The notes beneath the pieces are model-generated. The model searched no databases, was not told where the DNA came from, and saw only the letters and a program-made list of their open reading frames with translations. The translations under genes were made by a program, and so were the position numbers. From positions 62,001-126,000 of the forward strand of contig NZ_JAPONB010000005.1 of assembly GCF_026676115.1 (NCBI RefSeq): DNA of 64,000 nt. The letters run 5' to 3'. Each line of letters opens with the position of its first letter. Positions within the stretch are counted from its first letter, which is position 1. This stretch comes from Salinimicrobium sp. TH3 (GTDB taxonomy: Bacteria; Bacteroidota; Bacteroidia; Flavobacteriales; Flavobacteriaceae). Shown piece by piece: positions 26,843 through 41,153 of this stretch.

Positions 26843-28846
26843 ATGAAATTTAAAGTAAAGTCAGATTTTAAGCCCACGGGAGATCAGCCGCAGGCTATAA
26901 AGCAACTGGTTAGCGGAATTGAAAACAATGAACGATACCAGACACTTCTTGGAGTAACAGGATCGGGGAAAACCTTTACAGTCGCCAACGTAATCGAAGA
27001 GGTTCAAAAACCTACTCTTGTACTTGCACATAACAAGACCCTGGCCGCCCAGCTTTATTCTGAATTTAAGCAGTTCTTCCCTGATAATGCGGTAGAATAT
27101 TTCGTAAGTTACTACGACTACTATCAGCCGGAAGCTTTTATACCCTCCTCGGGAACTTATATTGAAAAGGATCTTTCGATAAACGAAGAAATTGAGAAAA
27201 TGCGTCTCAGCACCACCTCTTCCCTCCTCTCCGGAAGGAGAGATGTGATAGTGGTAGCTTCGGTTTCCTGTCTTTACGGTATTGGGAACCCGGTTGAGTT
27301 CAAGAAGAACGTTGTTTCCATTGAAAAAGATATGGTGATCTCACGAACACAGCTGCTTCATAAGCTTGTGCAAAGTCTTTATTCAAGGACCGAAGCTGAA
27401 TTCAACCACGGGAACTTCCGAATTAAAGGAGATACTGTAGATGTCTATCCAAGTTATGCAGATAATGCCTTCAGAATTCACTTTTTTGGAGATGAGATAG
27501 AAGAGATTGAAGCTTTTGACCCGGCTACAAACGAGGTTATAGAGAAATATGAACGTCTTAATATCTATCCTGCGAACATGTTCGTGACTTCGCCCGATGT
27601 ACTCCAGGGAGCTATACGGCAGATCCAGGATGATTTGGTAAAACAAGTAGATTACTTCCAGGACATAGGAAAACATTTGGAGGCAAAACGTCTTGACGAG
27701 CGCACAAATTTCGATCTTGAAATGATAAGGGAATTGGGCTACTGTTCTGGAATTGAGAACTACTCGAGGTACCTGGATGGTCGTCTACCGGGCACAAGAC
27801 CTTTCTGTTTACTGGATTATTTCCCCGACGATTTCCTTATGGTAGTGGATGAAAGTCACGTTACTATCCCGCAGGTACATGCGATGTACGGAGGGGACAG
27901 ATCCAGAAAAGAAACTCTGGTCGATTACGGTTTCCGGCTTCCGGCAGCAATGGATAACCGTCCGCTTAAATTTGAGGAGTTTGAAATACTTCAGAATCAG
28001 GTGATTTACGTAAGTGCTACTCCGGCAGATTATGAACTTCAGAAGACAGAGGGAATGTATATTGAACAGGTAATTAGACCTACCGGTTTACTGGATCCTG
28101 TAATTGAAGTGCGACCCAGTCTCAACCAGATAGACGATCTCATTGAGGAAATGCAGGTGAGGATCGACAAAGACCAGAGGATTTTAGTTACGACCCTTAC
28201 AAAACGAATGGCCGAAGAGCTAACGAAATACCTTACCAGAATTGATATTCGCTGTCGCTACATACATAGCGATGTCGATACATTAGAGCGGGTGGAAATT
28301 ATGCAGGACCTTCGAAAAGGGCTTTTTGACGTGCTGGTTGGAGTAAACTTGTTACGGGAAGGACTTGACCTTCCGGAAGTTTCCCTGGTGGCAATTCTCG
28401 ATGCCGATAAAGAAGGTTTCTTAAGGAGCAACCGTTCCCTTACGCAGACAATTGGCCGGGCTGCACGCCACCTGGAAGGAAAAGCCATTTTGTATGCTGA
28501 TAAAATTACAGATAGTATGCAAAAGACTATTGACCAGACGGAGTACAGGCGTGAGAAACAGCTGAAGTACAACGAAGTCAACAACATCACTCCCACCGCG
28601 CTTAAAAAGTCTTTTGAGAATATGCTGGTGCGTAAAAAACCAGAGCCCTATGTGTATGAGGTTGCTCCCGATCTAAAAGCCGCAGAGGCTGAAACAGAAT
28701 TCTTTAGTAAACCACAACTTGAAAAAAGGATCAGGGAAAAAAGAAAGGCCATGGAATCGGCGGCTAAAGAGCTGGATTTTATGACAGCGGCAAAATTGCG
28801 TGATGAAATCAAGATGCTGCAGGAAAAAGTACAGGAAACCTCTTAA
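26843..28846 (+). CDS. uvrB: Excinuclease ABC subunit B
   Basis: DNA-damage-verifying helicase-like subunit of nucleotide excision repair. The 667-residue protein has Walker A GVTGSGKT (37-44), the beta-hairpin region with YYDYYQPEAFIP, the DESH motif in VVDESHVTIPQ, motif VI QTIGRAARH, and a C-terminal UVR domain (MESAAKELDFMTAAKLRDEI). Length is normal. It has its own strong promoter. Confidence 0.97.
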   Translation: MKFKVKSDFKPTGDQPQAIKQLVSGIENNERYQTLLGVTGSGKTFTVANVIEEVQKPTLVLAHNKTLAAQLYSEFKQFFPDNAVEYFVSYYDYYQPEAFIPSSGTYIEKDLSINEEIEKMRLSTTSSLLSGRRDVIVVASVSCLYGIGNPVEFKKNVVSIEKDMVISRTQLLHKLVQSLYSRTEAEFNHGNFRIKGDTVDVYPSYADNAFRIHFFGDEIEEIEAFDPATNEVIEKYERLNIYPANMFVTSPDVLQGAIRQIQDDLVKQVDYFQDIGKHLEAKRLDERTNFDLEMIRELGYCSGIENYSRYLDGRLPGTRPFCLLDYFPDDFLMVVDESHVTIPQVHAMYGGDRSRKETLVDYGFRLPAAMDNRPLKFEEFEILQNQVIYVSATPADYELQKTEGMYIEQVIRPTGLLDPVIEVRPSLNQIDDLIEEMQVRIDKDQRILVTTLTKRMAEELTKYLTRIDIRCRYIHSDVDTLERVEIMQDLRKGLFDVLVGVNLLREGLDLPEVSLVAILDADKEGFLRSNRSLTQTIGRAARHLEGKAILYADKITDSMQKTIDQTEYRREKQLKYNEVNNITPTALKKSFENMLVRKKPEPYVYEVAPDLKAAEAETEFFSKPQLEKRIREKRKAMESAAKELDFMTAAKLRDEIKMLQEKVQETS

Positions 28847-28938
28847 TGTGTTAAAATTTTTATAGAGTGCTGTAAAACAGGAAGATATTTAAGTATATTG
28901 ATTTTTATTGGTGTCTCCCCGAGAAAAAAAATGCACTC

Positions 28939-30150
28939 GTGTACAAACTTTTGTTATTGGGGATCGTACTCCTCTTGATTTCTTTTAAAACAAATGCGCA
29001 GGTAGGGATCAATACCCATGACCCAAAAGCCCAACTGGATATAAGCATTGAAGATCCGGCTTCGCCGGAAAATACAGATGGCATTCTTATCCCGCGAATG
29101 TCAAATTTTCCAGCCACTAATCCAACGGAAGCTCAACACGGGATGCTGATCTTCCTCACCTCTCAAAAATTGGAATTCCCAACAGGATTTTATTGGTGGA
29201 ATTCCTCCCTGGTAGCCTGGGAAAGTGTGGGAAGAAAAGCTACATCAGATTTTTACAAAATTGGAACAACATCTCCCTCCACCAGTCCAGAGGATGCGGT
29301 CTTTAGAAAAGGTAATGTTAGCATTGGCGGCTCTTCCCAAAATGTTAAACTGAAGGTGATAATTGATGATAAGGAAGATCATTTAATACGTACCGGCCTT
29401 GAAGTTGACAACGCAAGTTCGACAGCAAAAAATGTTACTTACGGCATTGTAACCAGTAATAATACTGCAACAGCCGATAAAAAGTATGGAATAAAAAGCT
29501 CTGTTAGTGCCAATGGAATTGGTATTCACTACGGCATTTTTAATGAGGTGAATCAGAATACAAATGAAGAGATCTACGGGATCTATAATGATGTAGGTAA
29601 GACATTTGGGTCCACAAAAAACCACTATGGAATCTACAACGAAATTGGAACAGTACAGGGGAATGGCTTTGTCTATGGCATATACAGCACGGCCTATGGG
29701 AATGATCCAAAAAAGGTATATGCAGGCTACTTTTCGGGGAGAGTAGGCATAGGAACAACAGGAAATGATTACGTGTTGCCGGATGTGAGAGGTTCCCATG
29801 ACCAGGTTTTAATGACAGATGCAAGTGGCATTGTGAGCTGGAAATATCCATACTCCGGCACCTATTCCTCCACTGCCTCTAATACCGGAGCTTTTATAAT
29901 TCCCGAAGAAACTTACTCCCTTCGCATCAATAACCAGGTGAGCAGCGTTGTAATTCCCGACGCCGCTACTAATAAAGGCCGACTAATTTACCTTATCAAC
30001 TGGCCCGGAAACTCAAAAAAGATTCTGGATTTTATAGGCAGTAACGACCTGTTTGATATTACCACAAATTCAACAGTGACTAGTATTGATCCGGGAACAA
30101 AGTACCTCATTCAGAGTGCCGGCAACCGGTGGATCCTTTTGGATAAATAG
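28939..30150 (+). CDS. Secreted structural-type protein of unknown function
   Basis: A 403-residue protein with an N-terminal signal peptide (MYKLLLLGIVLLLISFKTNA, then QVGINT). QVGINT followed by P-x-A-x-LDI is a very common opening of Bacteroidota surface and tail-fibre-like proteins. The middle has repeated YGI(Y/F)N/S units (about 155-255), like phage-fibre or adhesin beta repeats. There is no sorting domain at the C-terminus. The start is GTG at 28939; an ATG eight bases upstream is out of frame. Function unknown. Confidence 0.75.
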   Translation: MYKLLLLGIVLLLISFKTNAQVGINTHDPKAQLDISIEDPASPENTDGILIPRMSNFPATNPTEAQHGMLIFLTSQKLEFPTGFYWWNSSLVAWESVGRKATSDFYKIGTTSPSTSPEDAVFRKGNVSIGGSSQNVKLKVIIDDKEDHLIRTGLEVDNASSTAKNVTYGIVTSNNTATADKKYGIKSSVSANGIGIHYGIFNEVNQNTNEEIYGIYNDVGKTFGSTKNHYGIYNEIGTVQGNGFVYGIYSTAYGNDPKKVYAGYFSGRVGIGTTGNDYVLPDVRGSHDQVLMTDASGIVSWKYPYSGTYSSTASNTGAFIIPEETYSLRINNQVSSVVIPDAATNKGRLIYLINWPGNSKKILDFIGSNDLFDITTNSTVTSIDPGTKYLIQSAGNRWILLDK

Positions 30151-30166
30151 ATTAAAGAAAAGGATT

Positions 30167-30178
30167 GGGCTAAAGCCC
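30167..30178. repeat. GGGCTAAAGCCC palindrome, copy 1
   Basis: A 12-base near-palindrome just after the secreted protein gene. It also occurs at 30370-30381 and, reversed, at 30522-30533. Confidence 0.7.
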
Positions 30179-30207
30179 TAATGACATTTTAATTCTAAAT
30201 CCTCCGG

Positions 30208-30284
30208 ATAAATTCGGAGGCAATTCATGGATAGACCAGGATTTCTTGTGAATGGATGAGAGCCTGTAGACATGAATTACCTCC
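30208..30284 (+). repeat. Conserved stem-loop repeat, copy A
   Basis: A 77-base element. GGAGG, then AATTCATG, pairs with CATGAATT, then CCTCC at the other end; an inner CAGG pairs with CCTG; the apical loop TTCTTGTGAATGGATGAGAG is identical in copy B. Fold and loop are conserved; stem bases vary. Confidence 0.75.
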
Positions 30285-30338
30285 CCTTCAAAAAGAGGCA
30301 TAAAAAGTTCTCTTCAATAGCCTTTAAACAAAAAAAGG

Positions 30339-30368
30339 ACACCAAAAAATGGCATTTTTGAGAGGTGT
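30339..30368. repeat. Degenerate copy of the CATTTTTGAGA palindrome
   Basis: ACACC, an extra A, AAAAATG, then G and CATTTTTGAGAGGTGT: the same core as the terminator at 8.2 kb but with the left TCTC missing and no T run, so probably not an active terminator. It lies between the two stem-loop repeats. Confidence 0.6.
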
Positions 30369-30369
30369 G

Positions 30370-30381
30370 GGGCTAAAGCCC
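30370..30381. repeat. GGGCTAAAGCCC palindrome, copy 2
   Basis: Same 12 bases as 30167-30178, upstream of stem-loop copy B at a similar distance. Confidence 0.7.
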
Positions 30382-30410
30382 TTTTTGATACAGGATCCTC
30401 TTACCTTCAG

Positions 30411-30486
30411 ATAAATCCGGAGGAAATCATGGACAGACCAGGAGTTCTTGTGAATGGATGAGAGCCTGTAGATATGAATTACCTCC
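30411..30486 (+). repeat. Conserved stem-loop repeat, copy B
   Basis: A 76-base relative of copy A in the same orientation, about 85 percent identical by eye. The outer GGAGG/CCTCC and inner CAGG/CCTG pairs are kept. It is followed by a small hairpin CCGCCT-TC-AGGCGG (30485-30498). Confidence 0.75.
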
Positions 30487-30521
30487 GCCTTCAGGCGGAA
30501 GCTCAAGGTGTAATCAATCCT

Positions 30522-30533
30522 GGGCTTTAGCCC
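30522..30533. repeat. GGGCTTTAGCCC palindrome, copy 3 (reversed)
   Basis: Reverse complement of the other two copies; it closes the repeat cluster about 50 bases before the stop of the acyl-CoA synthetase gene. Confidence 0.7.
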
Positions 30534-30581
30534 AATAAAAAACTCAAAAATGGAGGGTTATTATAATTTTGATACATCAGC

Positions 30582-32678
30582 TTATGCGATCTCATTTATT
30601 TGATTAGGCTGTAGCTTCTTAACCGATCTTTCTAAACGAATTCTTACATCCACAGCAGTTAAATCATTCTGAGTAGCCATAAGAGGATTGAGGTCCAATT
30701 CTGCAATTTCGGGCACAAGAGTCAGGAGATCTGAAATTTTTACAATGGTGTCAGCAAACAATTTGATGTTGATACCGGCCTGACCTCTAATTCCTTTTAA
30801 AATGGGTGCTGCTTTTAGATCTGTTATCATTTGTAAAGCCTCTTCGTCTGAAACAGGAGTCATTGCAGCACTAATATCCTTTAAAACCTCAACAAAGATG
30901 CCTCCCAATCCGCATAAAATGACATGAGGATAATTTGTTTCTTTTTTCGCTCCTATGAACAATTCCATTCCCTTGATCATAGGCTGGATCATGACAGAAG
31001 TTGCTCCTTCGATTTGCATCAACTTGTGGAAATTATCATGTAATTCGACTTCGTTTGAAACATTCAGGATAACTCCGCCAACATCAGATTTATGCAACGG
31101 CCCTTCAACTTTTAGAACTACTGGGTAAGTAACAGAATTTGAAATATTGTTTAGCTCTGCTTGATTCCTTGCCTGAAGTGGAACGGCAAATTTCACTCCT
31201 GCAGTTTCCAACAAACTAATTGCAACTTCTGTAGGCAAGTACCCGTCAGGAAGTGCATTTATTAACTTTCGGATTTTTGTAGAAAATTGTAGGACAGGAT
31301 TTTTAGTTTTTTTACGCACCGGTGTTTGATTATAAACTTTGGATAAGGCCTGTCCAAATAATACCTCATCATGGAATGCGATATTTCCTTTTTTAATAAA
31401 TTCCCTGATCTCATTCTTCACATTCACTACTGAAGGCAATACGGCGTAAATCGGCTTTTTAGAAGTGTTGATTTTTTTATCCAGTACTGCATATACATCA
31501 TCCACAGCGGTTAAACCGGGACTCCCGAAGATCACAGTTATCGCATCAATTTGGGTCGAGTTCTCACAGTACTCAATAATGGCATCTAACTGCCCAGCAT
31601 TACCGGTCGCTAGAAAATCAATAGGATTGGATACAGTTGATCCATCAAATAATTTATCCAATAAGGCTTTGCTTTCTTTACCTTCTAAATGTGGGATCTT
31701 TAATCCATTCTTTGATAATACATCTGTCAGCATTACAGCAGGCCCGCCGGCATGGGTAATAATGGCTATATTCTTTCCTTCAGATTCCTTTTGCTGAAGT
31801 ATTCCGGCAACAGTAATGAGTTCGTTCCTGCCGTAGCAACGTAAAATACCGGCTTTTTTAAACAATGTATCTACAAAAACATCTGAATTGGCTATAGCTC
31901 CTGTATGTGAAGAAGCCGCCCTGTTTCCTTCCTCCGAACTTCCGGCCTTAATTGCCGCAATTTTACAACCCTTACCTATAAGGGAGGCTGTATGTTCCAG
32001 GAATTTAAGCGGGTTCTTGATGCTTTCAATGTAAAGCAGTTTTACTCTTGAACTTGTTTCTTTGTCAAAAGAGCGGTCCAAATATTCCAGAATCTCCTCC
32101 ACTCCTATTTGAGCACTGTTTCCAACGGTATACAAGCTAGAAAATGTTAGCCCCATGCTCTTTGCTGCTTCAATAATAAAAACTGCCGTCGCACCGGAAC
32201 CTGATATAAAGTCAACACCATTCTCATCCAGTTTTGGGATGGGCGTTGTAAAAACTCCTGTGTAATGCTTGTTTATTAATCCAATATTGTTAGGACCCAA
32301 TAAACTCCCGCCCGCTTCATTGATCAACCCGACAATTTCCCTTTCCAGCTTTGCACCGGCTTCATCTTTTTCACTGAAGCCTGCCGAGAAGATAATAAAG
32401 CCCTTTGTGTTCTTCTTTTGAGTAAGAACTTTAACGGCTTCAACAACATATTTTGCAGCAATGGCGATTATCGCCAAATCTACTTCAGGCAAATCATTGA
32501 TGTCATTATAAGATCTCACCCCCTGCACCACGTCCTGTTTGGGATTGACCACAAATAAGTTCCCTTCGAATTGATGGTCGAGCAGGTTTTTCAAAACTCG
32601 GCCACCAGGACTATGAATATTATCAGACCCCCCAACAACAACGATGCTTTTAGGATGAATTAATTTGGGATGAAGCAT
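30582..32678 (-). CDS. ADP-forming acetate/acyl-CoA synthetase, fused alpha-beta
   Basis: Converts acyl-CoA + ADP + phosphate to acid + CoA + ATP (reversible). The 698-residue protein joins the alpha part (CoA-binding Rossmann domain with SIVVVGGSDN near the N-terminus, LLGPNNIGL, and the phospho-His loop in ASSHTGA) to a beta part with an ATP-grasp domain from about 480 (LPTEVAISLLE; VLKVEGPLHKSDVGGV; LDLNPL). In archaea and some bacteria such enzymes harvest ATP from acetyl-, phenylacetyl- or indoleacetyl-CoA. Its neighbours, an aminotransferase and indolepyruvate oxidoreductase, favour aryl-acetyl-CoA. Confidence 0.9.
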   Translation of the reverse strand: MLHPKLIHPKSIVVVGGSDNIHSPGGRVLKNLLDHQFEGNLFVVNPKQDVVQGVRSYNDINDLPEVDLAIIAIAAKYVVEAVKVLTQKKNTKGFIIFSAGFSEKDEAGAKLEREIVGLINEAGGSLLGPNNIGLINKHYTGVFTTPIPKLDENGVDFISGSGATAVFIIEAAKSMGLTFSSLYTVGNSAQIGVEEILEYLDRSFDKETSSRVKLLYIESIKNPLKFLEHTASLIGKGCKIAAIKAGSSEEGNRAASSHTGAIANSDVFVDTLFKKAGILRCYGRNELITVAGILQQKESEGKNIAIITHAGGPAVMLTDVLSKNGLKIPHLEGKESKALLDKLFDGSTVSNPIDFLATGNAGQLDAIIEYCENSTQIDAITVIFGSPGLTAVDDVYAVLDKKINTSKKPIYAVLPSVVNVKNEIREFIKKGNIAFHDEVLFGQALSKVYNQTPVRKKTKNPVLQFSTKIRKLINALPDGYLPTEVAISLLETAGVKFAVPLQARNQAELNNISNSVTYPVVLKVEGPLHKSDVGGVILNVSNEVELHDNFHKLMQIEGATSVMIQPMIKGMELFIGAKKETNYPHVILCGLGGIFVEVLKDISAAMTPVSDEEALQMITDLKAAPILKGIRGQAGINIKLFADTIVKISDLLTLVPEIAELDLNPLMATQNDLTAVDVRIRLERSVKKLQPNQINEIA

Positions 32679-32800
32679 AAAAAAAATAATATAATATTAG
32701 TAAAGAAAGAGAATTGAAAGAAGATTTTAACTGATATTCATCAGCATCTGTTTGATTAGATATTAGTTAATTTGATAGAACAGTCAAAACTTTTTAGGCT

Positions 32801-34018
32801 ATGTATGCATTTTCGAAAGCAGTCAATTCCATGCATTCAGAGGACGTTAAACAATTGATGAAACAAGCTTCCGGCAAAAACCTGATCTCCTTTGCAGGTG
32901 GTATGCCCAACAATGATCTTTTTCCGGTAAAGCAAATTGATGAGATCTATAATTCTTTACCTGAGGATGTCAAAAAGTTGTGTTTTCAATATGGTCCCAC
33001 TTCCGGTTATCCTCCTTTGATCAGGTCCCTGGAAAGCTATTTAAAAAACAAGGGATTGGCAGTTGATGATAATAAAATTTTGATCACTACAGGTTCCCTG
33101 CAAGCGATATCGATAATCACTCAGGAATTTGTCAATGAAGGAGATATTATACTTACAGAAAATCCTTGTTTCGTTGGAGCTTTAACGGTCTTTGAAACTT
33201 TTGGAGCCGAGATACACAGCATACCTATCGACGTGAATGGCATCAACATCGAAGCCTTAAAAAGTAAGATCGAATCCTTGGACCGGAAGCCGAAGTTCCT
33301 ATATGTAACACCCAATTATCATAACCCGGCAGGCATTATTTACACACCTGAAAAGAAAAGAGAACTCCTGGAAGTTTTATCGGGTACAGGAATTATTCTT
33401 GTTGAAGACGATGCTTACAGTGATCTCTATTTCAACGGGGAAGAGAAATCTCTGACTAGAGCCATGAAATCTTATGGCGTTAAAGATGTAGAAATCATCT
33501 ATACGGGATCATTTTCAAAAATACTGGGTCCGGGTTTTAGGTTGGGTTACATGCTTTCTTCTGAAGAGATCTTCGAAAAAGCTGAAACGGTTAAACAGGC
33601 TCTAGATGCCTGTACTTCCAGTTTTATGCAGATACTGGCCAATGAATTTCTAGCACAAAATAAACTGGAACCTTATTTGACATTTTTGAGGAGTGAGTAT
33701 CTGGAACGAAAGAATATGCTTCAAAAATATTTAAAAACTTACATGCCTGAAGAAGTCACCTGGAATGAACCCAAAGGTGGTTTTTACGTCTGGCTAAAAT
33801 TACCCCCACACATTAGATCAACAGACATATTTAAAGAAAGTGTTGCCAAAGGAGTAGTATTTGTAACCGGAAGAACCTTTGATCCTGCCAGTCAAAAGGA
33901 TGACAGGTTGCGACTTTCCTTTTCTAATATGCCCAAAGATCAAATTGAAAAAGGAGTCATTATCTTATCCAAAGCAATAAAAAAAGTGCTCCAGAATTCT
34001 AAAATGCAAATCTCCTGA
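32801..34018 (+). CDS. PLP aminotransferase, aromatic/2-aminoadipate (LysN/ARO8-like) type
   Basis: A 405-residue fold-type I class-I/II aminotransferase. Visible marks are ISFAGGMPNNDLFP near the N-terminus, YGPTSGYPPLI, TTGSLQAI, the PNYHNPAG loop, VEDDAYSD (cofactor Asp) and the Schiff-base Lys in TGSFSKILGPGFRLGY. The N-terminal GG-P and G-R-L-G pattern is that of LysN, ARO8 and kynurenine-type enzymes, which accept aromatic amino acids and 2-aminoadipate. It diverges from the acyl-CoA synthetase and converges on iorBA, giving a compact catabolic cassette. Confidence 0.88.
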   Translation: MYAFSKAVNSMHSEDVKQLMKQASGKNLISFAGGMPNNDLFPVKQIDEIYNSLPEDVKKLCFQYGPTSGYPPLIRSLESYLKNKGLAVDDNKILITTGSLQAISIITQEFVNEGDIILTENPCFVGALTVFETFGAEIHSIPIDVNGINIEALKSKIESLDRKPKFLYVTPNYHNPAGIIYTPEKKRELLEVLSGTGIILVEDDAYSDLYFNGEEKSLTRAMKSYGVKDVEIIYTGSFSKILGPGFRLGYMLSSEEIFEKAETVKQALDACTSSFMQILANEFLAQNKLEPYLTFLRSEYLERKNMLQKYLKTYMPEEVTWNEPKGGFYVWLKLPPHIRSTDIFKESVAKGVVFVTGRTFDPASQKDDRLRLSFSNMPKDQIEKGVIILSKAIKKVLQNSKMQIS

Positions 34019-34040
34019 TCGTTTTTTTAGGTGCTAAGCG

Positions 34041-34089
34041 AAAAAAGTATCGGGAATAAAACCAAGCCTTTTTCCCGATACTTTTTTTA
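34041..34089. terminator. Bidirectional terminator between aminotransferase and iorB
   Basis: AAAAAAGTATCGGGA pairs with TCCCGATACTTTTTT around a loop of about 16 bases. A and T runs on the outer sides allow use from both converging genes. Confidence 0.85.
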
Positions 34090-34110
34090 TAAAGAACTAT
34101 TATATCTACT

Positions 34111-34707
34111 CTAAGAATTAGCCAGATTGGTTATTCCTTCAGCTACTTTTTTTCCTTCAGCAAAAGCTTCAAGGTTTAGCTTGATGATCTTTTCACTTTT
34201 ATTCTGAAACAACTTTTTAATGGCTTCGATCATGCTGTTTTCTGATAATGGAATTATCGCTGATGCAGCTCCCAATAAAACGATATTGGCCACTTTTGAA
34301 TTACCAATGGCTTTGGCAATTTCTGTAGCGTTTATAATGACGTGATTGGGATGCTTCTTTATCTGGTCAAAAAGATCTTTTTTTTCAGGGTAATTGGAAG
34401 TATTAATAAAAGCCTCCGAATCTGTAACCAGCCAGCCATCCTTCTTCAAAAAAGGCATATATCTCAAAGCTTCCATGGGTTCTACCGATAAGATCAAATC
34501 AGCTTTTCCTTCAGGAATGAGATCAGAAAATATTTGCTTGTCCGATATTCTTACATGGGATTGTACAGCACCGCCACGTTGGCTCATCCCGTGAACTTCA
34601 GATTGTTTAATGAACAAGTTCTCGCTTAAAGCAGCAGTATCCAAAACCGCAGCGATGGTAAGGATCCCCTGACCACCAACACCCGATAATATTATATTTG
34701 TTTTCAT
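34111..34707 (-). CDS. iorB: Indolepyruvate ferredoxin oxidoreductase, beta subunit
   Basis: A 198-residue subunit of the 2-oxoacid:ferredoxin oxidoreductase gamma type. MKTNIILSGVGGQGILT is the family opening; SEVHGMSQRGGAVQSHVRI and LIPEGKADLILSVEPMEALR follow. With IorA it oxidatively decarboxylates aryl-pyruvates to aryl-acetyl-CoA. The ATG at 34707 is used; a longer frame to 34827 overlaps iorA and is not conserved. It is 28 bases downstream of iorA. Confidence 0.93.
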   Translation of the reverse strand: MKTNIILSGVGGQGILTIAAVLDTAALSENLFIKQSEVHGMSQRGGAVQSHVRISDKQIFSDLIPEGKADLILSVEPMEALRYMPFLKKDGWLVTDSEAFINTSNYPEKKDLFDQIKKHPNHVIINATEIAKAIGNSKVANIVLLGAASAIIPLSENSMIEAIKKLFQNKSEKIIKLNLEAFAEGKKVAEGITNLANS

Positions 34708-34735
34708 CTGTTTAATTTGTTCTAAGTGAGATACT

Positions 34736-36349
34736 TTAGTTGAGTGACGCAATTCTGGCCTTAATTTGCTCTTTTTGATCCCTTGATAATCTAACGCAGG
34801 GCCTTTCAGAAATAATGACCGAAACACCTTTGTATTTTAATTCCTTTCGCAAGACTTCCACGTTTTCTTCGTGGTTCTTTTTTAAGGGTACTATAGTTTT
34901 AAGATGATCGGGATGAACCCCAATACCTAAACAAATTTTGTGCAATCGGCCTACTGCAGAAGATTCCTGAGCTCCTGTCATAGCAACAGCCGAGTTATCT
35001 GAAATGATGATCGTAACTGGTGTATTTTCATAAACCGCATCCAGAAGTCCCGTCATGCCCGAATGTGTGAAGGTGGAATCTCCTATAACTGCAAGAGCAT
35101 TCTCCAAACCCGCATCTGCGGCGCCTTTTGCCATTGTAATAGAGGCTCCCATATCTATAAGTGTGTTTATAGTACCTAAAGGCGGTAAAGCTCCCAATGC
35201 ATAACATCCAATGTCTCCAAAAACGTTTTTATTCCCTATTTCTGGTATTAATTCATTAATAGCGTTAAAGAGGTCTGTATGACCACAACCTTCACAAAGT
35301 TGTGGAGGTCTTGGAGTTACCACCGAAGGGATAGGGGCTATCTCGTTTTGAAAAAGCCCCAGGGATTTCCCCACTAGCTTAGGGTTCAGTTCTCCCGTTC
35401 GCGGCAGATCGCCCGATAATTTTCCTTTTATTTTATCGTTATCATCAAAATAGTTGTGAAGCAATTCTTCCACTATGGGGTATCCGTCTTCCACAACCAG
35501 GATTTTTTCACAGTGGTTGTATAATGCTTTTACTTTTTCTTTGGGTAAAGGGTATTGCGTGACTTTTAAAATAGAATAATCTGAGTCATCATCTCCCAGA
35601 TTTTCCATCACATAATTATAAGCTATTCCACAAGCTATAATTCCTACTCCCCTGCTTTTACCTTTTTTCAGGCTGTTAAGGTCAGATTTTTCTGAATATT
35701 CAATAAGAGTTTCCTGTTTATTGACCAACAGATCAAACTGCTTTCTGGCATTCATGGGAAGCAGAGCAAACCGCGAGGTATCTGATGGTAAATTGATATC
35801 ATTTGGATCACGTCTTTCCTTTACTTCAATACCTGCACGGGAATGCGATAAGCGGGTAACCAACCTTAACAATACAGGTAATTTCAATTCTTCCGAGAGA
35901 TCAAAGGCATAAAACATCATATTATAGGCTTCCTGCTGATTTGATGGTTCAAGGATTGGAATCATTGCAAATTTTCCATAGAACCGGGAATCCTGTTCAT
36001 TCTGCGAAGAATGCATAGAAGGATCATCGGCCACTACGACAACAAGTCCACCATTGATTCCGGAAACAGCCATATTCATAAAAACATCTGAAGCTACATT
36101 CAAACCTACATGTTTCATAACCACCATGGATCTCTTGCCAACATAGGACATTCCCAAAGCTGCTTCCATGGCCGTTTTTTCGTTAACAGACCAGGTGGTG
36201 TGTATCTTTAATTCTTTAGCAAGTTTGGACTTTTGAATGTATTCGGTTATTTCAGTTGAAGGGGTGCCGGGATATGCATAAACACCGGATAGACCTGCGT
36301 CGATACTACCCTGAGCAAGTGCTTCATTACCTAAAAGTAAACTTTTCAT
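34736..36349 (-). CDS. iorA: Indolepyruvate oxidoreductase alpha subunit lacking the ferredoxin domain
   Basis: The TPP-binding catalytic subunit: MKSLLLGNEALAQGSIDAGL and AYPGTPSTEI (pyrimidine domain), PQLCEGCGHTDLF, then FGDIGCYALG and a GDSTFTHSGMTGLLDAV stretch for TPP/Mg binding. It has 537 residues and ends soon after IISERPCV. Canonical IorA continues with a domain of about 60-80 residues holding two CxxCxxCxxxCP clusters; those cysteines are absent here and there is no frameshifted remnant before iorB. Electron exit must therefore differ. ATG 36349 is chosen over the 25-residue upstream extension. Confidence 0.9.
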   Translation of the reverse strand: MKSLLLGNEALAQGSIDAGLSGVYAYPGTPSTEITEYIQKSKLAKELKIHTTWSVNEKTAMEAALGMSYVGKRSMVVMKHVGLNVASDVFMNMAVSGINGGLVVVVADDPSMHSSQNEQDSRFYGKFAMIPILEPSNQQEAYNMMFYAFDLSEELKLPVLLRLVTRLSHSRAGIEVKERRDPNDINLPSDTSRFALLPMNARKQFDLLVNKQETLIEYSEKSDLNSLKKGKSRGVGIIACGIAYNYVMENLGDDDSDYSILKVTQYPLPKEKVKALYNHCEKILVVEDGYPIVEELLHNYFDDNDKIKGKLSGDLPRTGELNPKLVGKSLGLFQNEIAPIPSVVTPRPPQLCEGCGHTDLFNAINELIPEIGNKNVFGDIGCYALGALPPLGTINTLIDMGASITMAKGAADAGLENALAVIGDSTFTHSGMTGLLDAVYENTPVTIIISDNSAVAMTGAQESSAVGRLHKICLGIGVHPDHLKTIVPLKKNHEENVEVLRKELKYKGVSVIISERPCVRLSRDQKEQIKARIASLN

Positions 36350-36710
36350 CTGTTTAAATTTGATATTGCGTAGTGGAATGACCCGATCTTTATCGTCATC
36401 CCCCAAAACGATATAGTTGTGCAACTAATTTAGAAGATTCAATGTAATTAGAGTATGATCTTCATCATGCCCTGGTACTATAAACAATACAGAATTGCTC
36501 AAATGAAATATCTCAAAAAACGCCTTTTTTGGCAATAATTAAGCTGAAGTCCTTCCAAAATCCAAAAAAATACCTACCAGGTTAGAATGCTTATTAAATT
36601 ACCTCCACATTTAGGTCGAGGTATATAACCTACCCTTCCTTACTGCTTAGTCCAAACAAAAAAAAACGCTCCCGTAAAGGAACGTTTTTTACACTTTGCA
36701 AAACCTTACA
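36350..36710. other. Intergenic region upstream of iorA
   Basis: About 360 bases between iorA and hsp20, both on the minus strand. A non-conserved frame extends iorA upstream to 36424. The hsp20 terminator lies at 36659-36690. No RNA gene or further coding sequence is visible; the iorA promoter should lie here, but no clear -7 box was found. Confidence 0.5.
36659..36690 (-). terminator. Terminator of hsp20
   Basis: An AAAAAACG arm pairs with CGTTTTTT around a short inner CC/GG pairing, 20 bases after the hsp20 stop on the minus strand. Confidence 0.75.
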
Positions 36711-37157
36711 TTATTTGATATCAATCATTCGTTTGGCCTGTACCTTAGCATCTTCACGTTTTGGAAGCTCAATTTTTAATACTCCCTCTTTGTACTGTGC
36801 AGAGATCTTTTCGGGATCTACTGTTTCAGGAAGACTGAAAGCACGTTTAAAGCTACTGTAGCTAAATTCCCGACGGGTAAATCTTCCACCATTCTCCTTT
36901 TTCTCATCTTCTTTTTTTACTTCAGAAGAAATGGTAAGAACTCCATTATCCAACTCCAGGTTAAAATCTTTTTTAGTCATACCGGGAGCGGCAAGTTCGA
37001 GATGAAAAGTATCATCGTCTTCAGAAATGTTTACAGCAGGTACGCTGGTTCCAATGCGGTTCATTCCAGAGTTTCCATTGTCCATCCAGTCGGTTTTGAA
37101 CATGTCGTCAAAAATAGATGGAAGCCAGTTGTCTGTGTTTCGTTTTACAAGGTTCAT
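36711..37157 (-). CDS. Small heat-shock protein (Hsp20/alpha-crystallin)
   Basis: A 148-residue ATP-independent holdase. The alpha-crystallin domain spans about 45-145 with VPAVNISEDDDTFHLELAAPG, LDNGVLTISSE, the SYSSFKRAFSLPETVD region, and the closing GVLKIELPKRE. The N-terminus (NLVKRNTDNWLPSIFDDMF) is the common Bacteroidota form, and IDIK at the end stands where others have I-x-I. It is monocistronic. Confidence 0.93.
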   Translation of the reverse strand: MNLVKRNTDNWLPSIFDDMFKTDWMDNGNSGMNRIGTSVPAVNISEDDDTFHLELAAPGMTKKDFNLELDNGVLTISSEVKKEDEKKENGGRFTRREFSYSSFKRAFSLPETVDPEKISAQYKEGVLKIELPKREDAKVQAKRMIDIK

Positions 37158-37372
37158 AGCTAAATATTTTTAAGTTATACAATTTTATTTTTCAAATTTT
37201 ACCAGTCAAATTAAATACCAGTTCATAAAATACGTCATTTTGTCGGCGTTAAACCCTTTTAAACTGTCATTATGTCTTTATTGATAAGGTTTTTACAGAA
37301 ACGCTTTTACTTTGCTTTTGAAACTTCCTTAATTCATTAGGCTTATGTATTTTTACAGCTTAAAACTCACCT

Positions 37373-37618
37373 ATGCCTCTATCTAATAATGACATCTTCA
37401 AGAAACTGAGAGTTGCTTTAAAACTACGGGATGAGGATATTGTTCATATTTGCTCTCTCGTGGATTTCAAAGTCACCAAAAGTGAGATTGGAGCTATTTT
37501 TCGAAGTGAAGACCATCCAAAATATATGGAATGTGGGGATCAATTTCTACGGAATTTCCTCAATGGTTTAGTGATCTACAAACGTGGACCTATGCCCAAA
37601 AAAGAAGAAAAAAAGTAG
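37373..37618 (+). CDS. DUF1456 single-repeat protein
   Basis: An 81-residue protein with one DUF1456 unit: SNNDIFKKLRVALKLRDED, then VTKSEIGAIFRSEDHP and QFLRNFLNGLVI. E. coli YehS has two such units (about 150 residues); this has one, plus a Lys/Glu tail. Function unknown, cytoplasmic. It ends 3 bases before cysH starts, so co-transcription is very likely. Confidence 0.85.
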   Translation: MPLSNNDIFKKLRVALKLRDEDIVHICSLVDFKVTKSEIGAIFRSEDHPKYMECGDQFLRNFLNGLVIYKRGPMPKKEEKK

Positions 37619-37621
37619 CCC

Positions 37622-38311
37622 ATGGAAGTAATTGCCGAGAAGAGAATCGTCACGGCTTCTGAAGTTGCCTCGCTCAATAAAAAATACCGGAATCTTAACC
37701 TACATGAGAGAATAGAAGAACTCTACAAGGATTTTAGTCTTACCGAAATAATGCTTACCAGCTCCTTTGCTGCTACCTCTGCTTTTCTTTTAAAACTATT
37801 TTCGGAGGTTAACCGCGATCAACTTATATATTTTATTGATACCGGCTACCATTTTGAAGAAACCCTTAAGTACAGGAAAAAGTTGTCTGAGCTTTACGGT
37901 CTTCGGGTGAAATCTATTAGTGCTATAAAAGAGGAACACGACTTTACAAGAACTGATGAGACATGGAAAAAAAACCCCGATTTCTGTTGTCACATAAACA
38001 AGGTGAAGCCCCTGGATTTAATCAAGGCAAAATATACTGTTTGGGTAAGCGGCTTGATGGAATGGCAAAGCGACCACCGTTCCACACTTGACATTTTCGA
38101 AAACCGGGGAGAAATCCTCAAGTTCTACCCGCTGCTGGACGTCACAAAGAAAGAGCGGGATGATTTTATTGCAAAACATGAACTCCCTTTCCACCCTCTG
38201 GTTTCCAAAGGTTACAGTTCGATTGGCTGCTCTCCCTGTACTGCACCGGGAGAAGAAAGAAGCGGCCGCTGGAACAACAGCCCTAAAACCGAATGTGGTT
38301 TACATCTATAA
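37622..38311 (+). CDS. cysH: Phosphoadenylyl/adenylyl-sulfate reductase
   Basis: Reduces activated sulfate (APS or PAPS) to sulfite with thioredoxin-type reductant. The 229-residue protein has FIDTGYHFEET, then CC at 122-123 and CSPC at 203-206 (the four ligands of a [4Fe-4S] cluster) and the catalytic ECGLH at 224-228. The cluster ligands place it with the bacterial APS/PAPS reductases rather than the E. coli PAPS type. No other cys genes are beside it, and it is coupled to the DUF1456 gene. Confidence 0.92.
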   Translation: MEVIAEKRIVTASEVASLNKKYRNLNLHERIEELYKDFSLTEIMLTSSFAATSAFLLKLFSEVNRDQLIYFIDTGYHFEETLKYRKKLSELYGLRVKSISAIKEEHDFTRTDETWKKNPDFCCHINKVKPLDLIKAKYTVWVSGLMEWQSDHRSTLDIFENRGEILKFYPLLDVTKKERDDFIAKHELPFHPLVSKGYSSIGCSPCTAPGEERSGRWNNSPKTECGLHL

Positions 38312-38313
38312 AC

Positions 38314-38350
38314 AAAAAACCCGGAGTGATTACTTCCGGGTTGTTTTTTA
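38314..38350. terminator. Terminator between cysH and the first small secreted gene
   Basis: AAAAAACCCGGA pairs with TTCCGGGTT and a T run, between converging genes. Confidence 0.85.
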
Positions 38351-38363
38351 AGGTCAGCTTAAC

Positions 38364-38702
38364 CTAACTCACTTTCTTTACAACAGTGAGTTCATAAATT
38401 CTGCCTTTCATCCAGGATTCGGCAGGAAGCAATCTGTTGGACAATTGCTTCTGAATGTACTCATTCACTTCCCCGTGAGGAGAAGAAACCGATAAGCTCT
38501 GGATCTTTTGATCTTCAGAAACTGAAAAGAAAACTGTTACTTCAAGTGGTTCACACTCGTTGGCTAATTTCACATTTTCAAGAATTTTTTCAATTTCAAC
38601 AGATACTGAATCTGGATTTGCAAGACTTTTAATCTCCCTGGCTGATACAGTTGAAGAAATGATCATTGCAAATACTACTAACAACAGTTTTAAATTTTTC
38701 AT
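38364..38702 (-). CDS. Small secreted TonB-C-terminal-like protein, paralog 1
   Basis: A 112-residue protein with a signal peptide (hydrophobic 5-19, cleavage near SA-R). The mature part has the beta-helix-beta order of a TonB C-terminal domain: VTVFFSVSEDQKI, a short loop SSPHGEVNEYIQKQL, then YELTVVKK. Paralogs follow at 38880 and 39346. An ECF-like promoter lies upstream. No TonB N-terminal membrane anchor exists, so it is a free periplasmic or secreted domain. The fold is inference. Confidence 0.75.
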   Translation of the reverse strand: MKNLKLLLVVFAMIISSTVSAREIKSLANPDSVSVEIEKILENVKLANECEPLEVTVFFSVSEDQKIQSLSVSSPHGEVNEYIQKQLSNRLLPAESWMKGRIYELTVVKKVS

Positions 38703-38756
38703 GACGTTCGTTTTTAAATTAATAGATGCGATTTGATTATTGATGATTTACTATAA

Positions 38757-38783
38757 AGACTTCATAAAGAGGTAATTGTTACA
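38757..38783 (-). promoter_or_regulatory. Candidate ECF-sigma promoter of paralog 1
   Basis: On the minus strand TGTAAC (38783-38778), a 17-base spacer and GTCT (38760-38757), followed by TTAT. An ACTGTTAAAGTT block lies further upstream at 38794-38805. The same order of blocks occurs before paralog 2. Confidence 0.5.
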
Positions 38784-38833
38784 ACACACAGAAAACTTTA
38801 ACAGTAATTTTTAATTTTAAATTGTAAGGTCAT

Positions 38834-38863
38834 AAAAAAACCCGGTGATTAGCCGGGTTTTTT
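38834..38863 (-). terminator. Terminator of paralog 2
   Basis: AAAAAACCCGG pairs with CCGGGTTTTTT around an 8-base loop. Confidence 0.85.
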
Positions 38864-38879
38864 ACCAATGTGCTGTAGC

Positions 38880-39221
38880 TTACCTGCTTGTCTGCACTTT
38901 TACCGGTAATTCATAGATCTTCTCAGAACGCCAGGTGTTACCGTAAAGCTTTTGGTTCTCCAATCTTTTTTTAAGGAAAGAATTTACTTCCTCGTTTGGA
39001 GAATCAATCAAACTGATCTCAATTTTTCTATCTTCATTTACTTTAAAGATAACCCGCACTGTAAATTCTTCTTCAATGACTAAACCGGAATCTAAAAGCA
39101 TTTGTTCTATTTGATCGCTAATTGATCTGTTTCTTTCTTCAAAATCGAAATTGGTGTTTGCAAGAGTTGCAGTTGATACAGTTAATGCAAAAGCAGCTAA
39201 TAAAAGTCTAAAGCGTTTCAT
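38880..39221 (-). CDS. Small secreted TonB-C-terminal-like protein, paralog 2
   Basis: A 113-residue paralog with a signal peptide (MKRFRLLLAAFALTVSTATL, cleaved after ANA-like residues). The core is VRVIFKVNEDRKIEI, DSPNEEVNSFLKKRL and KIYELPVKV, the clearest of the three for a TonB C-terminal-like beta-alpha-beta fold. Its upstream region shares four blocks with paralog 1, so promoter and gene were duplicated together. It is monocistronic with its own terminator. Confidence 0.78.
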   Translation of the reverse strand: MKRFRLLLAAFALTVSTATLANTNFDFEERNRSISDQIEQMLLDSGLVIEEEFTVRVIFKVNEDRKIEISLIDSPNEEVNSFLKKRLENQKLYGNTWRSEKIYELPVKVQTSR

Positions 39222-39270
39222 AATCGTTCGTTTTAAAAATTAATATTAATTGATTGATGTTATACCATAA

Positions 39271-39298
39271 AGACTGTAAGCAATTTCCGATTGTTACA
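39271..39298 (-). promoter_or_regulatory. Candidate ECF-sigma promoter of paralog 2
   Basis: On the minus strand TGTAAC (39298-39293), an 18-base spacer and GTCT (39274-39271), then TTAT. The ACTGTTAAAGTT block is at 39319-39330. The leader ends AAAACGAACG before the ATG, as in paralog 1. Confidence 0.5.
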
Positions 39299-39345
39299 GT
39301 CGGCTTTTTGCTTAACTTAACTTTAACAGTTTCTCGAAACCTGAA

Positions 39346-39687
39346 TTATCGAATGGCCTTTACCCTTACCGGTAATTCATACACCTTGTTAGAGTCCCAA
39401 TTCGCACCTTTCAATTGTTGACCACTTAGACGTGCTCTCAAAAATTTATTTGCTCTTTCATTTGATGAGGAAATGGATCTTATTTCAATTTCCTTACTGT
39501 CATTAAGGATGAACCACACCTTAATTGTAAAATCTTTCTCAATAATAAGGGATGAACGGGAAAGCATCCTGGAAATTTCTTCGCTAAAAGGATCTTTTCC
39601 AGCCGTCATACTTAAAGAAGTCGCCGCAATACTTGAAAAGGAGATAAACATGATTAGTGTAAACAGGAAAGATTTAATTGTTTTCAT
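39346..39687 (-). CDS. Small secreted TonB-C-terminal-like protein, paralog 3
   Basis: A 113-residue paralog with a signal peptide (KTIKSFLFTLIMFISFSSIA). The core is IKVWFILNDSKEIEI, SSNERANKFLRARL and KVYELPVRV. The ATG at 39687 is chosen; the frame runs to 39765 but the extra 26 residues precede the signal peptide. The ECF-like blocks of the other two are missing here, so regulation probably differs. Confidence 0.75.
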   Translation of the reverse strand: MKTIKSFLFTLIMFISFSSIAATSLSMTAGKDPFSEEISRMLSRSSLIIEKDFTIKVWFILNDSKEIEIRSISSSNERANKFLRARLSGQQLKGANWDSNKVYELPVRVKAIR

Positions 39688-39907
39688 AACTCTGGTTTTT
39701 AGTTTTTGATTTCGGGGTAAAATTATCTCAAACCAGTTGTCCTGAGAAAAAAACGAGGTTATCAAAATGTTGAGGAATGTTTATCTAATTCGCAAAAATT
39801 GAGGTGGAATTTAAGACCAGGTTACGAATATGTCAACAGGGTAATGACACAGGTATTCAACAATAGGTATTAGGGAGCTTCCAATCTTCTACTCTACTGC
39901 CATAAAT

Positions 39908-39939
39908 AGAAAAACCCCGGAGCTTTCCGGGGTTTTTCT
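39908..39939 (-). terminator. Terminator of sucC
   Basis: AGAAAAACCCCGGA and TCCGGGGTTTTTCT are exact reverse complements around a 4-base loop. Confidence 0.88.
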
Positions 39940-39959
39940 ATTTTATGTTTTAAAGAGTA

Positions 39960-41153
39960 TTAAGCCAATACTTCCTGCACTTTATCTGCTGCTTCCTGGA
40001 ATTCAACAGCACTGTACACATCAAGTCCGCTGTTATCAATTAGTTCCTTGGCAATATCTGCGTTAGTTCCCTGGAGACGAACAATAATAGGTACATTAAT
40101 AGTATCCCCAAGGTTTTTGTAAGCATCAACAATTCCCTGTGCAACACGGTCACATCTTACAATTCCTCCAAATATGTTTACCAATATAGCTTTTACTTTA
40201 TCATCTTTCAAGATAAGACGGAATGCTTCTTCAACTCTCTTTGCATCGGCAGTACCTCCAACATCAAGGAAGTTCGCAGGTTCCCCACCGGCCTGTTTAA
40301 TAAGGTCCATGGTAGCCATTGCAAGTCCGGCACCATTTACCATACATCCAACATTCCCATCAAGGTCAACGTAGTTAAGACCTACTGCACGGGCTTCTAC
40401 TTCTACCGGGCTCTCCTCACGCTCATCACGCATTTCGGCGTAATCTTTATGACGAAAAAGCGCATTATCATCAAGAGTAACTTTAGCATCAACAGCCATG
40501 ATCTTATCATCGCTGGTTTTAAGGACCGGATTGATCTCGAAAAGAGAAGAATCAGATTTTGTGAAGGCCTCATAAAGAGACATCACGAATTTGGTCATTT
40601 CTTTAAAAGCATTTCCGCTTAATCCAAGGTTGAAGGCAATTCTTCTCGCCTGGAATGGCAGCAATCCTACTGCAGGATCCACCTCTTCATTGAATATCAA
40701 ATGTGGTGTTTCTTCGGCAACAGTTTCTATGTCCATACCACCTTCTGTAGAATACATGATCATATTCTTACCTGTAGCACGGTTAAGAAGAACAGACATA
40801 TAATATTCTTCGGGCTCATTGTCCCCAGGATAATAAACATCCTCGGCCACCAATACCTGATGTACTTTTTTACCTTCAGCAGAAGTTTGTGGCGTTACCA
40901 GGTTCATCCCGATTATTTGCCCTGCAATTTCTTCAACTTCCTGGAGATTTTTGGCAAGTTTAACTCCGCCACCTTTTCCACGTCCACCTGCATGTACCTG
41001 GGCCTTAATAACATGCCATCCTGTACCGGTTTGTTCTGTAAGTTTTTTTGCAGCTTCAACTGCCTCTTTTGCATCCTGAGCAACAATCCCACGTTGTATG
41101 CGGACCCCAAAACTGCTTAAAATTTCTTTTCCCTGATATTCGTGTATGTTCAT
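39960..41153 (-). CDS. sucC: Succinate-CoA ligase, beta subunit
   Basis: ATP-grasp beta subunit of succinyl-CoA synthetase in the TCA cycle. The 397-residue protein has MNIHEYQGKEILSSFGV, QVHAGGRGKGGGVKLA (nucleotide-binding), FEINPV, DAKVTLDDNALFRH, NGAGLAMATMD, GGTADA and VNIFGGIVRCD. Length is standard. sucD is not adjacent, which is usual in Bacteroidota. A clear minus-strand promoter precedes it. Confidence 0.97.
   Translation of the reverse strand: MNIHEYQGKEILSSFGVRIQRGIVAQDAKEAVEAAKKLTEQTGTGWHVIKAQVHAGGRGKGGGVKLAKNLQEVEEIAGQIIGMNLVTPQTSAEGKKVHQVLVAEDVYYPGDNEPEEYYMSVLLNRATGKNMIMYSTEGGMDIETVAEETPHLIFNEEVDPAVGLLPFQARRIAFNLGLSGNAFKEMTKFVMSLYEAFTKSDSSLFEINPVLKTSDDKIMAVDAKVTLDDNALFRHKDYAEMRDEREESPVEVEARAVGLNYVDLDGNVGCMVNGAGLAMATMDLIKQAGGEPANFLDVGGTADAKRVEEAFRLILKDDKVKAILVNIFGGIVRCDRVAQGIVDAYKNLGDTINVPIIVRLQGTNADIAKELIDNSGLDVYSAVEFQEAADKVQEVLA

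Follow-up and report, generated by a model that had tools for sequence, protein, structure and literature searches.

A putative low-oxygen, ATP-yielding cassette for aromatic amino-acid catabolism in Salinimicrobium sp. TH3 and the conserved palindrome in its promoters

Marine flavobacteria are major degraders of protein and polysaccharide and are usually described as aerobes. What, then, would a member of the Flavobacteriaceae do with four neighbouring genes for an aminotransferase (AT), the two subunits of an indolepyruvate ferredoxin oxidoreductase (IOR; IorA and IorB) and a fused ADP-forming acyl-CoA synthetase (ACD), and under which conditions would it use them? The question is raised by a 64,000-nucleotide stretch of Salinimicrobium sp. 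TH3 (NCBI RefSeq assembly GCF_026676115.1, contig NZ_JAPONB010000005.1, positions 62,001 to 126,000 of the forward strand), hereafter called the window. From comparisons of genes, promoters and genomic setting, we regard it as probable that this cassette is a low-oxygen, ATP-yielding catabolic route for aromatic amino acids. What appears to be new is a conserved palindrome that lies, in each of the two cassette promoter regions, 35 bp away from a -7-like element. The chemistry is already known, and the variant described here is set apart by its fused ACD, an IorA free of the ferredoxin domain, a common operator and a putative flavobacterial low-oxygen regulon. A literature search that misses most subscription papers found none joining indolepyruvate, Flavobacteriaceae and ferredoxin oxidoreductase, and we know of no description of a low-oxygen regulon in Salinimicrobium.

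The four genes are as follows.

30582..32678, minus strand: ACD, a fused ADP/NDP-forming acyl-CoA synthetase of 698 aa (PF13380, PF13607 and PF13549)
32801..34018, plus strand: AT, a class I pyridoxal phosphate (PLP) aminotransferase of 405 aa (PF00155)
34111..34707, minus strand: IorB, the gamma-type subunit of a 2-oxoacid oxidoreductase (PF01558, 5.8e-39; NF005324)
34736..36349, minus strand: IorA, 537 aa (TIGR03336, 524.7 bits over model positions 1-541 of 595)

That these genes are neighbours, and that they belong to the families named in a preliminary description of this DNA, is borne out by the open reading frames (ORFs), by family scans and by matches to Pfam, NCBIfam and solved structures. 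AT is encoded on the plus strand, convergent with iorB and divergent from ACD; it thus lies opposite to the other three genes, which therefore implies at least two transcripts rather than one operon. The iorB frame is readable up to 34827, with a MKTNIILSGVGG start at 34707. For iorA, a TTG-started ORF extends to 36424, and the ATG at 36349 was taken as the start because the putative -7 element of its promoter ends at 36425.

In ACD, the CoA_binding_2, Succ_CoA_lig and ATP-grasp_5 domains (PF13380, PF13607 and PF13549) each score above cut-off, and the closest solved relative is an ADP-forming 4-hydroxybutyrate-CoA ligase (8wzu, 1.1e-82). Both His258 (in SHTG) and His529 (in HKSDVGG) align with histidines of that structure, and we take them to be the two catalytic histidines and candidate phosphohistidines. 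AT (Aminotran_1_2) is closest to 1x0m (4.2e-79) and to Pyrococcus PH0207 (3aov, 6.2e-79), followed by the LysN-type 2egy (2.8e-65) and by KAT-II (about 1e-36); its PLP lysine is presumably Lys240. IorB (POR) passes the curated IOR model NF005324 with 283.6 bits (cut-off 222) and stays under the TIGR03334 cut-off (165.7 vs 205.8 bits), while IorA combines POR_N (PF01855, 3.3e-14) with the thiamine pyrophosphate (TPP)-binding TPP_enzyme_C (PF02775, 7e-13). Family membership and gene context thus support the order of steps proposed in the preliminary description, from aminotransferase through IOR to ADP-forming synthetase. AT would turn Phe, Tyr and Trp into arylpyruvates. Their oxidative decarboxylation by IorAB would yield arylacetyl-CoA and CO2 and reduce ferredoxin, and ACD would then release arylacetate and CoA from arylacetyl-CoA, making ATP from ADP and Pi.

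The condition under which such a route would operate is suggested by the promoters, whose features are given below.

32679..32800, no strand: 122-bp intergenic region, the divergent promoter region common to ACD (minus) and AT (plus)
32731..32744, no strand: palindromic putative operator CTGAT-N4-ATCAG, a Crp/Fnr-type box for both promoters, conserved as TGAY-N4-RTCA
32767..32774, plus strand: putative -7 element of the AT promoter, TTAATTTG, 35 bp from the box start
32700..32708, minus strand: putative -7 element of the ACD promoter, TTTCTTTAC, 35 bp from the box start
36425..36432, minus strand: putative -7 element of the iorA promoter, TAAATTAG, 35 bp from the box start
36455..36468, no strand: palindromic putative operator ATGAT-N4-ATCAT 5' of iorA, conserved in relatives as a relaxed box

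Relatives were collected by scanning one genome per species for IorA, which gave 371 stretches, and the best 80 of these 371 were kept as loci. For the AT/ACD region, the window was compared with the 24 loci in which this region is shorter than 200 bp, two loci with longer regions being excluded. TGAY-N4-RTCA is present in 25/25 of these regions. Toward AT, an element TTAnTTTG stands 35 bp from the box, start to start, in which neither the TTT (offsets 39-41) nor the following G (offset 42) varies (25/25); toward ACD, at the same distance, stands TTnnTTTAC, with TT at offsets 39-40 invariant (25/25) and the third T at 92 percent. A single operator appears to serve both promoters, as judged from this conservation. 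A spacing of 35 bp between box and -7 element is that of a class II activator, and 95 of the 189 boxes inside the cassette across relatives have an element at exactly this offset.

The iorA promoter repeats the arrangement. Among the 57 loci that contain ACD, 46 have a relaxed box between -60 and -81 relative to the iorA ATG (-55 to -90 searched), nearly always with TAnnTTT at offset 35; in the window the last T is A and the box lies at -118, the leader being longer. Within 300 bp 5' of iorA, a relaxed box was found in 54/57 ACD-bearing loci, in 2/23 loci without ACD and in 91/861 background regions, and an exact box in 39/57 ACD-bearing loci vs 57/861 background regions; the loci are related, and these counts are not independent trials. 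Unlike the window, 21/23 loci without ACD lack the iorA box, and the two that have it (L045 and L048) are flavobacterial contigs ending soon past iorB. Within the window, TGAY-N4-RTCA occurs outside ORFs only at the two cassette positions, a third copy lying at the end of the hsp20 gene.

Box and element were then joined into one composite pattern (TGAY-N4-RTCA-N23-T-N3-TTTR), searched on both strands with the reversed pattern as control. The Salinimicrobium sp. TH3 genome has 37 places vs 0 reversed, the AT/ACD box counting twice, and each of the 12 genus genomes has the site (8 to 37 places vs 0 to 2 reversed). A looser WTGATNNNNATCAW scan of the same genome gave 54 sites vs 8 in the reversed control, and 11 of the 48 inspected lay outside ORFs. 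An ORF starts within 350 nt of 34 of the 37 composite places (exceptions L283, L284 and L291), and 30 of these 34 ORFs were compared with family libraries, L278, L282, L289 and L293 being left out. Their products include HemN, CcoS, NrfH, citrate synthase, a malic-enzyme-type protein, an AdhP-type alcohol dehydrogenase, a lactate-type MFS transporter, Rrf2, five universal stress proteins, formate-THF ligase (Fhs), a U32 peptidase and two hemerythrin proteins. The site also precedes ferredoxin-PFOR, KorA (korAB) and, with the box 296 nt upstream, the ORF that holds nuoB. A target set that combines HemN, cbb3, Nrf, PFOR and Usp is typical of FNR/Anr control, and we read the composite sites as marking a putative FNR/Anr-like low-oxygen regulon. 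Besides the targets hemN, cbb3, nrf and usp, the resemblance to known FNR/Anr regulons covers the TGAT-N4-ATCA type of palindrome and the class-II-like spacing. The host had been described as probably aerobic, a view that we revise since the promoters place the cassette among low-oxygen genes.

Eight Crp/Fnr-type proteins are encoded in the genome. Two of them (L195:1655-2320 and L215:1072-1728) have the recognition-helix sequence GTVKETVNR in common, and each has a box 5' of its own gene, one exact and one relaxed; because of the common helix and these boxes, they are the best regulator candidates. As oxygen falls, such a Crp/Fnr protein would be expected to activate the cassette.

Several observations weigh against the reading of these genes as a low-oxygen route for aromatic amino acids, and they concern regulator, motif and enzymes alike. 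The only cysteines of the two candidate regulators are Cys 28/140/187 and 75/76/165, and the E. coli FNR pattern is found in neither; the signal could thus be nitric oxide or another cue. This, together with a -7 element of Bacteroidetes type, separates the system from FNR/Anr regulons, and both the assignment of the -7 elements and their type are our presumption. Composite sites also precede ORFs for a CAAX-type protease and for ferric-reductase-like, HlyD, BON, YgaP-like and Cys/Met PLP proteins; two further ORFs (L269 and L276) match no family, and many of the 34 are not typical anaerobiosis genes. Among 191 boxes outside the cassette in relatives, 11 have the element at offset 35 and 10 at offset 56, with a mean of 2.6 at other offsets. 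Neither the FNR consensus TTGATNNNNATCAA with up to two mismatches (66 matches vs 69 expected) nor exact TGATNNNNATCA (3 vs 1.8 expected) is enriched in the window, and it is by position and conservation only, not by count in the window, that the cassette boxes appear convincing. In one family genome (G161) no box was seen in the AT/ACD region or in the iorA promoter. As for the enzymes, ACD falls below the cut-off of every NCBIfam model that it matched, and IorA, at 524.7 bits, misses the TIGR03336 cut-off of 650.9; its alignment stops at 541 of 595, the ferredoxin domain at the C-terminal end of the IOR model being absent.

The shortened IorA is a property of the whole group. Among 79 complete proteins from the 80 fetched loci (L110 was excluded for Ns), the ferredoxin domain is absent in 79/79, the proteins ending soon after the fourth conserved cysteine, and TIGR03336 exceeds its cut-off in 0/60 related genomes. 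The closest IorA relatives are in Salinimicrobium, with S. sediminilitoris at 96 percent. A cysteine pattern of CxxC, +30 and +166 is invariant in 79/79, which points to Cys352, Cys355, Cys382 and Cys518 as candidate ligands of a TPP-proximal [4Fe-4S] cluster. IorA may accordingly be a single-cluster enzyme that hands electrons to a separate ferredoxin.

How closely the four genes belong together can be judged from their distribution, for which locus counts are lower bounds, since some loci (e.g., L045 and L048) stop shortly past iorB. IorB is present in 80/80 loci, ACD in 57/80 and AT in 26/80; all four genes occur together in 25, IorAB and ACD without AT in 32, IorAB alone in 22 and IorAB with AT in 1. 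Lutibacter-type loci have the order iorA-iorB-ACD, without AT. In 199 family genomes (own genome included; E 1e-60), IorA was detected in 10 and ACD in 22, and ACD is present in 10/10 IorA-bearing genomes vs 12/189 others; the named loci and the family genomes overlap, so that the two sets are not independent. A further point in favour of the set is that in G161 AT and ACD are still divergent neighbours though iorAB sits about 20 kb off. Co-conservation in relatives, proposed in the preliminary description as a check, is thus observed for IorAB with ACD and, in fewer loci, for all four genes. The four-gene set is not due to chance, because it is conserved in several genera.

The 12 ACD genomes without an IorA match bear on what ACD itself does. 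Two of these proteins are distant (31-32 percent identity, frames of at least 900 aa), one is a fragment, and in G180 part of iorB lies beside ACD on a short contig. Eight of the 12, however, are full-length, without IorA and 51-52 percent identical to the window ACD, and they add to the points against the aromatic reading. ACD could instead chiefly make acetate and ATP from acetyl-CoA, together with PFOR, at low oxygen, the linkage to IorAB being secondary and the enzyme acting on a broad range of acyl-CoA substrates, aryl ones included; we consider this a less likely alternative. Five of the eight standalone ACDs (L143, L144, L145, L147 and L150) have a box 50-121 nt upstream, and nor- or nos-like genes stand near at least two of the eight. 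Two neighbourhoods were scanned: the ACD of L145 has COX1-type, cytochrome c, VWA_CoxE, Rrf2 and ScdA-type genes around it, and that of L143 has NosD and nos-propeller genes. PFOR carries the same composite site, and a search of the own genome with the window ACD gives one match at 1e-60. Each of the five ACS alpha subunits of Pyrococcus furiosus accepts acetyl-CoA, and the substrate range of ACS enzymes is wide (PMC3942289), which likewise counts for acetate. Against acetate as the chief product stand the presence of ACD in every IorA-bearing family genome and its location in the same locus as iorAB in 57/80. A tree of 41 of the 71 ACD proteins (every second ior-linked one was used) speaks for both sides: as drawn, the standalone ACDs are nested among the ior-linked ones, yet the eight form a branch of their own (support 100/100).

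Known systems lend further weight to the aromatic amino-acid route. The archaeal precedent invoked in the preliminary description is real: in P. furiosus, ACS2 uses phenylacetyl-CoA and indoleacetyl-CoA, ATP is made from arylacetyl-CoA, and the gene of the ACS2 alpha subunit (PF0532) lies in an operon with IOR genes (PMC3942289). Linked IOR and ADP-forming synthetase genes are thus common to both organisms. In P. furiosus, a hyperthermophilic peptide fermenter, ACS is two subunits from unlinked genes, whereas ACD is fused here; further differences are an IorA without the ferredoxin domain, an aminotransferase under the common operator and a host that encodes oxygenase routes. In the Peptostreptococcales and in the Hpd pathway of Clostridium scatologenes, too, arylpyruvate is oxidized to an acyl-CoA and ATP follows (PMC13285125). 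These are anaerobic fermenters, and the Hpd pathway relies on a VOR-like OFOR together with a kinase route. In Peptostreptococcales, ADP-forming ligases or Pta-Ack are found close to many genes of IOR and VOR clusters (PMC13285125). The locus had been called unusual, which holds only in part given these clusters and the 371 IorA-related stretches. In gut anaerobes, measurements have shown OFOR activity that prefers aromatic substrates (PMC13290082).

All steps of the cassette are reversible in principle. It is conceivable, if quite improbable, that the genes work in reverse, with arylacetate being activated, reductively carboxylated to arylpyruvate and aminated to Phe, Tyr or Trp. A reverse, biosynthetic IOR has been proposed in Methanobacterium and possibly in Bacteroides, there beside an AMP-forming arylacetate-CoA ligase (PMC13285125). 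Bacteroides belongs to the same phylum, and the fetched Bacteroidales IorA proteins also lack the ferredoxin domain. The partner in the window, however, belongs to the ADP-forming family, its promoters have the composite site in common with anaerobic energy genes, and IorA was not detected in 6/12 genus genomes, of which four are at least 99 percent complete and two only 74-75 percent complete.

HppD exceeds its cut-off in 12/12 genus genomes, and the own hppD has HmgA-like and tryptophan-dioxygenase-like genes close by, both far below NCBIfam cut-offs; taken together, these make an oxygenase route likely. With ample oxygen, aromatic amino acids would probably be degraded through HppD, HmgA and tryptophan dioxygenase. 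Phenylacetate degradation was considered as a sink and rejected: no PaaA/PaaC match was found in 12/12 genus genomes (4/14 controls match), so that arylacetyl-CoA is not expected to feed the Paa pathway. Rnf was likewise rejected as an outlet for ferredoxin electrons, with no RnfC over cut-off in 12/12 genus genomes and weak matches in two. NuoB, NuoH and NuoI adjoin KorAB, a 4Fe-4S ferredoxin and PFOR (G000:C6:7000-20000, L212), and NuoF has 0 matches in the own genome, the E. coli control matching. A ferredoxin-fed complex I without the NADH module is the most likely electron outlet, and electrons would probably pass from ferredoxin through this NuoF-less complex to quinone.

Did the cassette arrive recently? 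Acquisition had been suggested from a bordering repeat cluster; a recent arrival next to mobile repeats is in our view very improbable. Its distribution is patchy (IorA in 10/199 family genomes), and in the four congeners that are at least 99 percent complete and lack IorA, the flanks are present and the cassette is missing (empty site in 4/4 tested); in three of them hsp20 is followed by a gene of 403 aa and uvrB, and in G004 directly by uvrB. Beside ACD there is indeed a repeat, as had been described, in two 74-nt copies (30211-30284 and 30413-30486) with GGAGG...CCTCC-like ends, and it matched only the own genome and S. sediminilitoris (L031) among the fetched sequences. It is possibly a small mobile or structured element. 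Patchiness, empty sites and repeat pair speak for an acquired island; recent acquisition is nevertheless not supported. No tandem repeats were found in 28800 to 40200, the window has no tRNA, and the six neighbours scanned include no integrase or transposase. Both S. sediminis and S. xinjiangense (L032 and L034) have sucC, cysH, DUF1456, hsp20, the cassette and uvrB in the order of the window, and S. catena (L035) has the same sucC side, with uvrB not seen within 4.7 kb past ACD. In Salegentibacter and Christiangramia/Gramella (L033, L036, L037 and L051), too, the cassette has hsp20 and uvrB as its flanks, and the ACD tree places the window with Salinimicrobium, then with Salegentibacter and Christiangramia. 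A site common to three genera, together with the empty sites, fits ancestral presence followed by loss as a block better than recent acquisition. This is the simpler reading of the comparison, exchange of the whole segment being the other possibility.

Two other parts of the window contain similar ORFs, the likeness being judged by eye. In the cysH-sucC interval (38364-39765), three alike small secreted-looking ORFs of 112, 113 and 139 aa stand in a row, and at 2984-4931 two adjacent ORFs with alike starts (MGAAxxVPGVSGG) are possibly tandem membrane-protein paralogues.

What would a low-oxygen aromatic amino-acid route mean for these bacteria? Lutibacter profundi is reported to be microaerophilic and to have ferredoxin-using enzymes, without growth in fermentative or anaerobic conditions (PMC5219744); such genes are therefore no proof of anaerobic growth. 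At about even confidence, we propose that flavobacteria with an oxygenase-based route shift their breakdown of aromatic amino acids, at falling oxygen, to a route through ferredoxin and ADP-forming chemistry, and that one Crp/Fnr protein lacking the cysteine pattern of E. coli FNR controls the cassette along with PFOR, KorAB, ferredoxin and the NuoF-less complex I. The entire ferredoxin economy of a lineage taken to be aerobic would then be a single low-oxygen regulon, and marine flavobacteria short of oxygen would have arylacetates as their signature products. The motif supplies an operator that can be tested and a list of 37 places for this putative regulon. If the proposal is true, a number of marine flavobacteria would carry a ready low-oxygen mode in which ATP is gained from aromatic amino acids and arylacetates are released; the auxin indole-3-acetate is possibly among them and could have an effect on algae.

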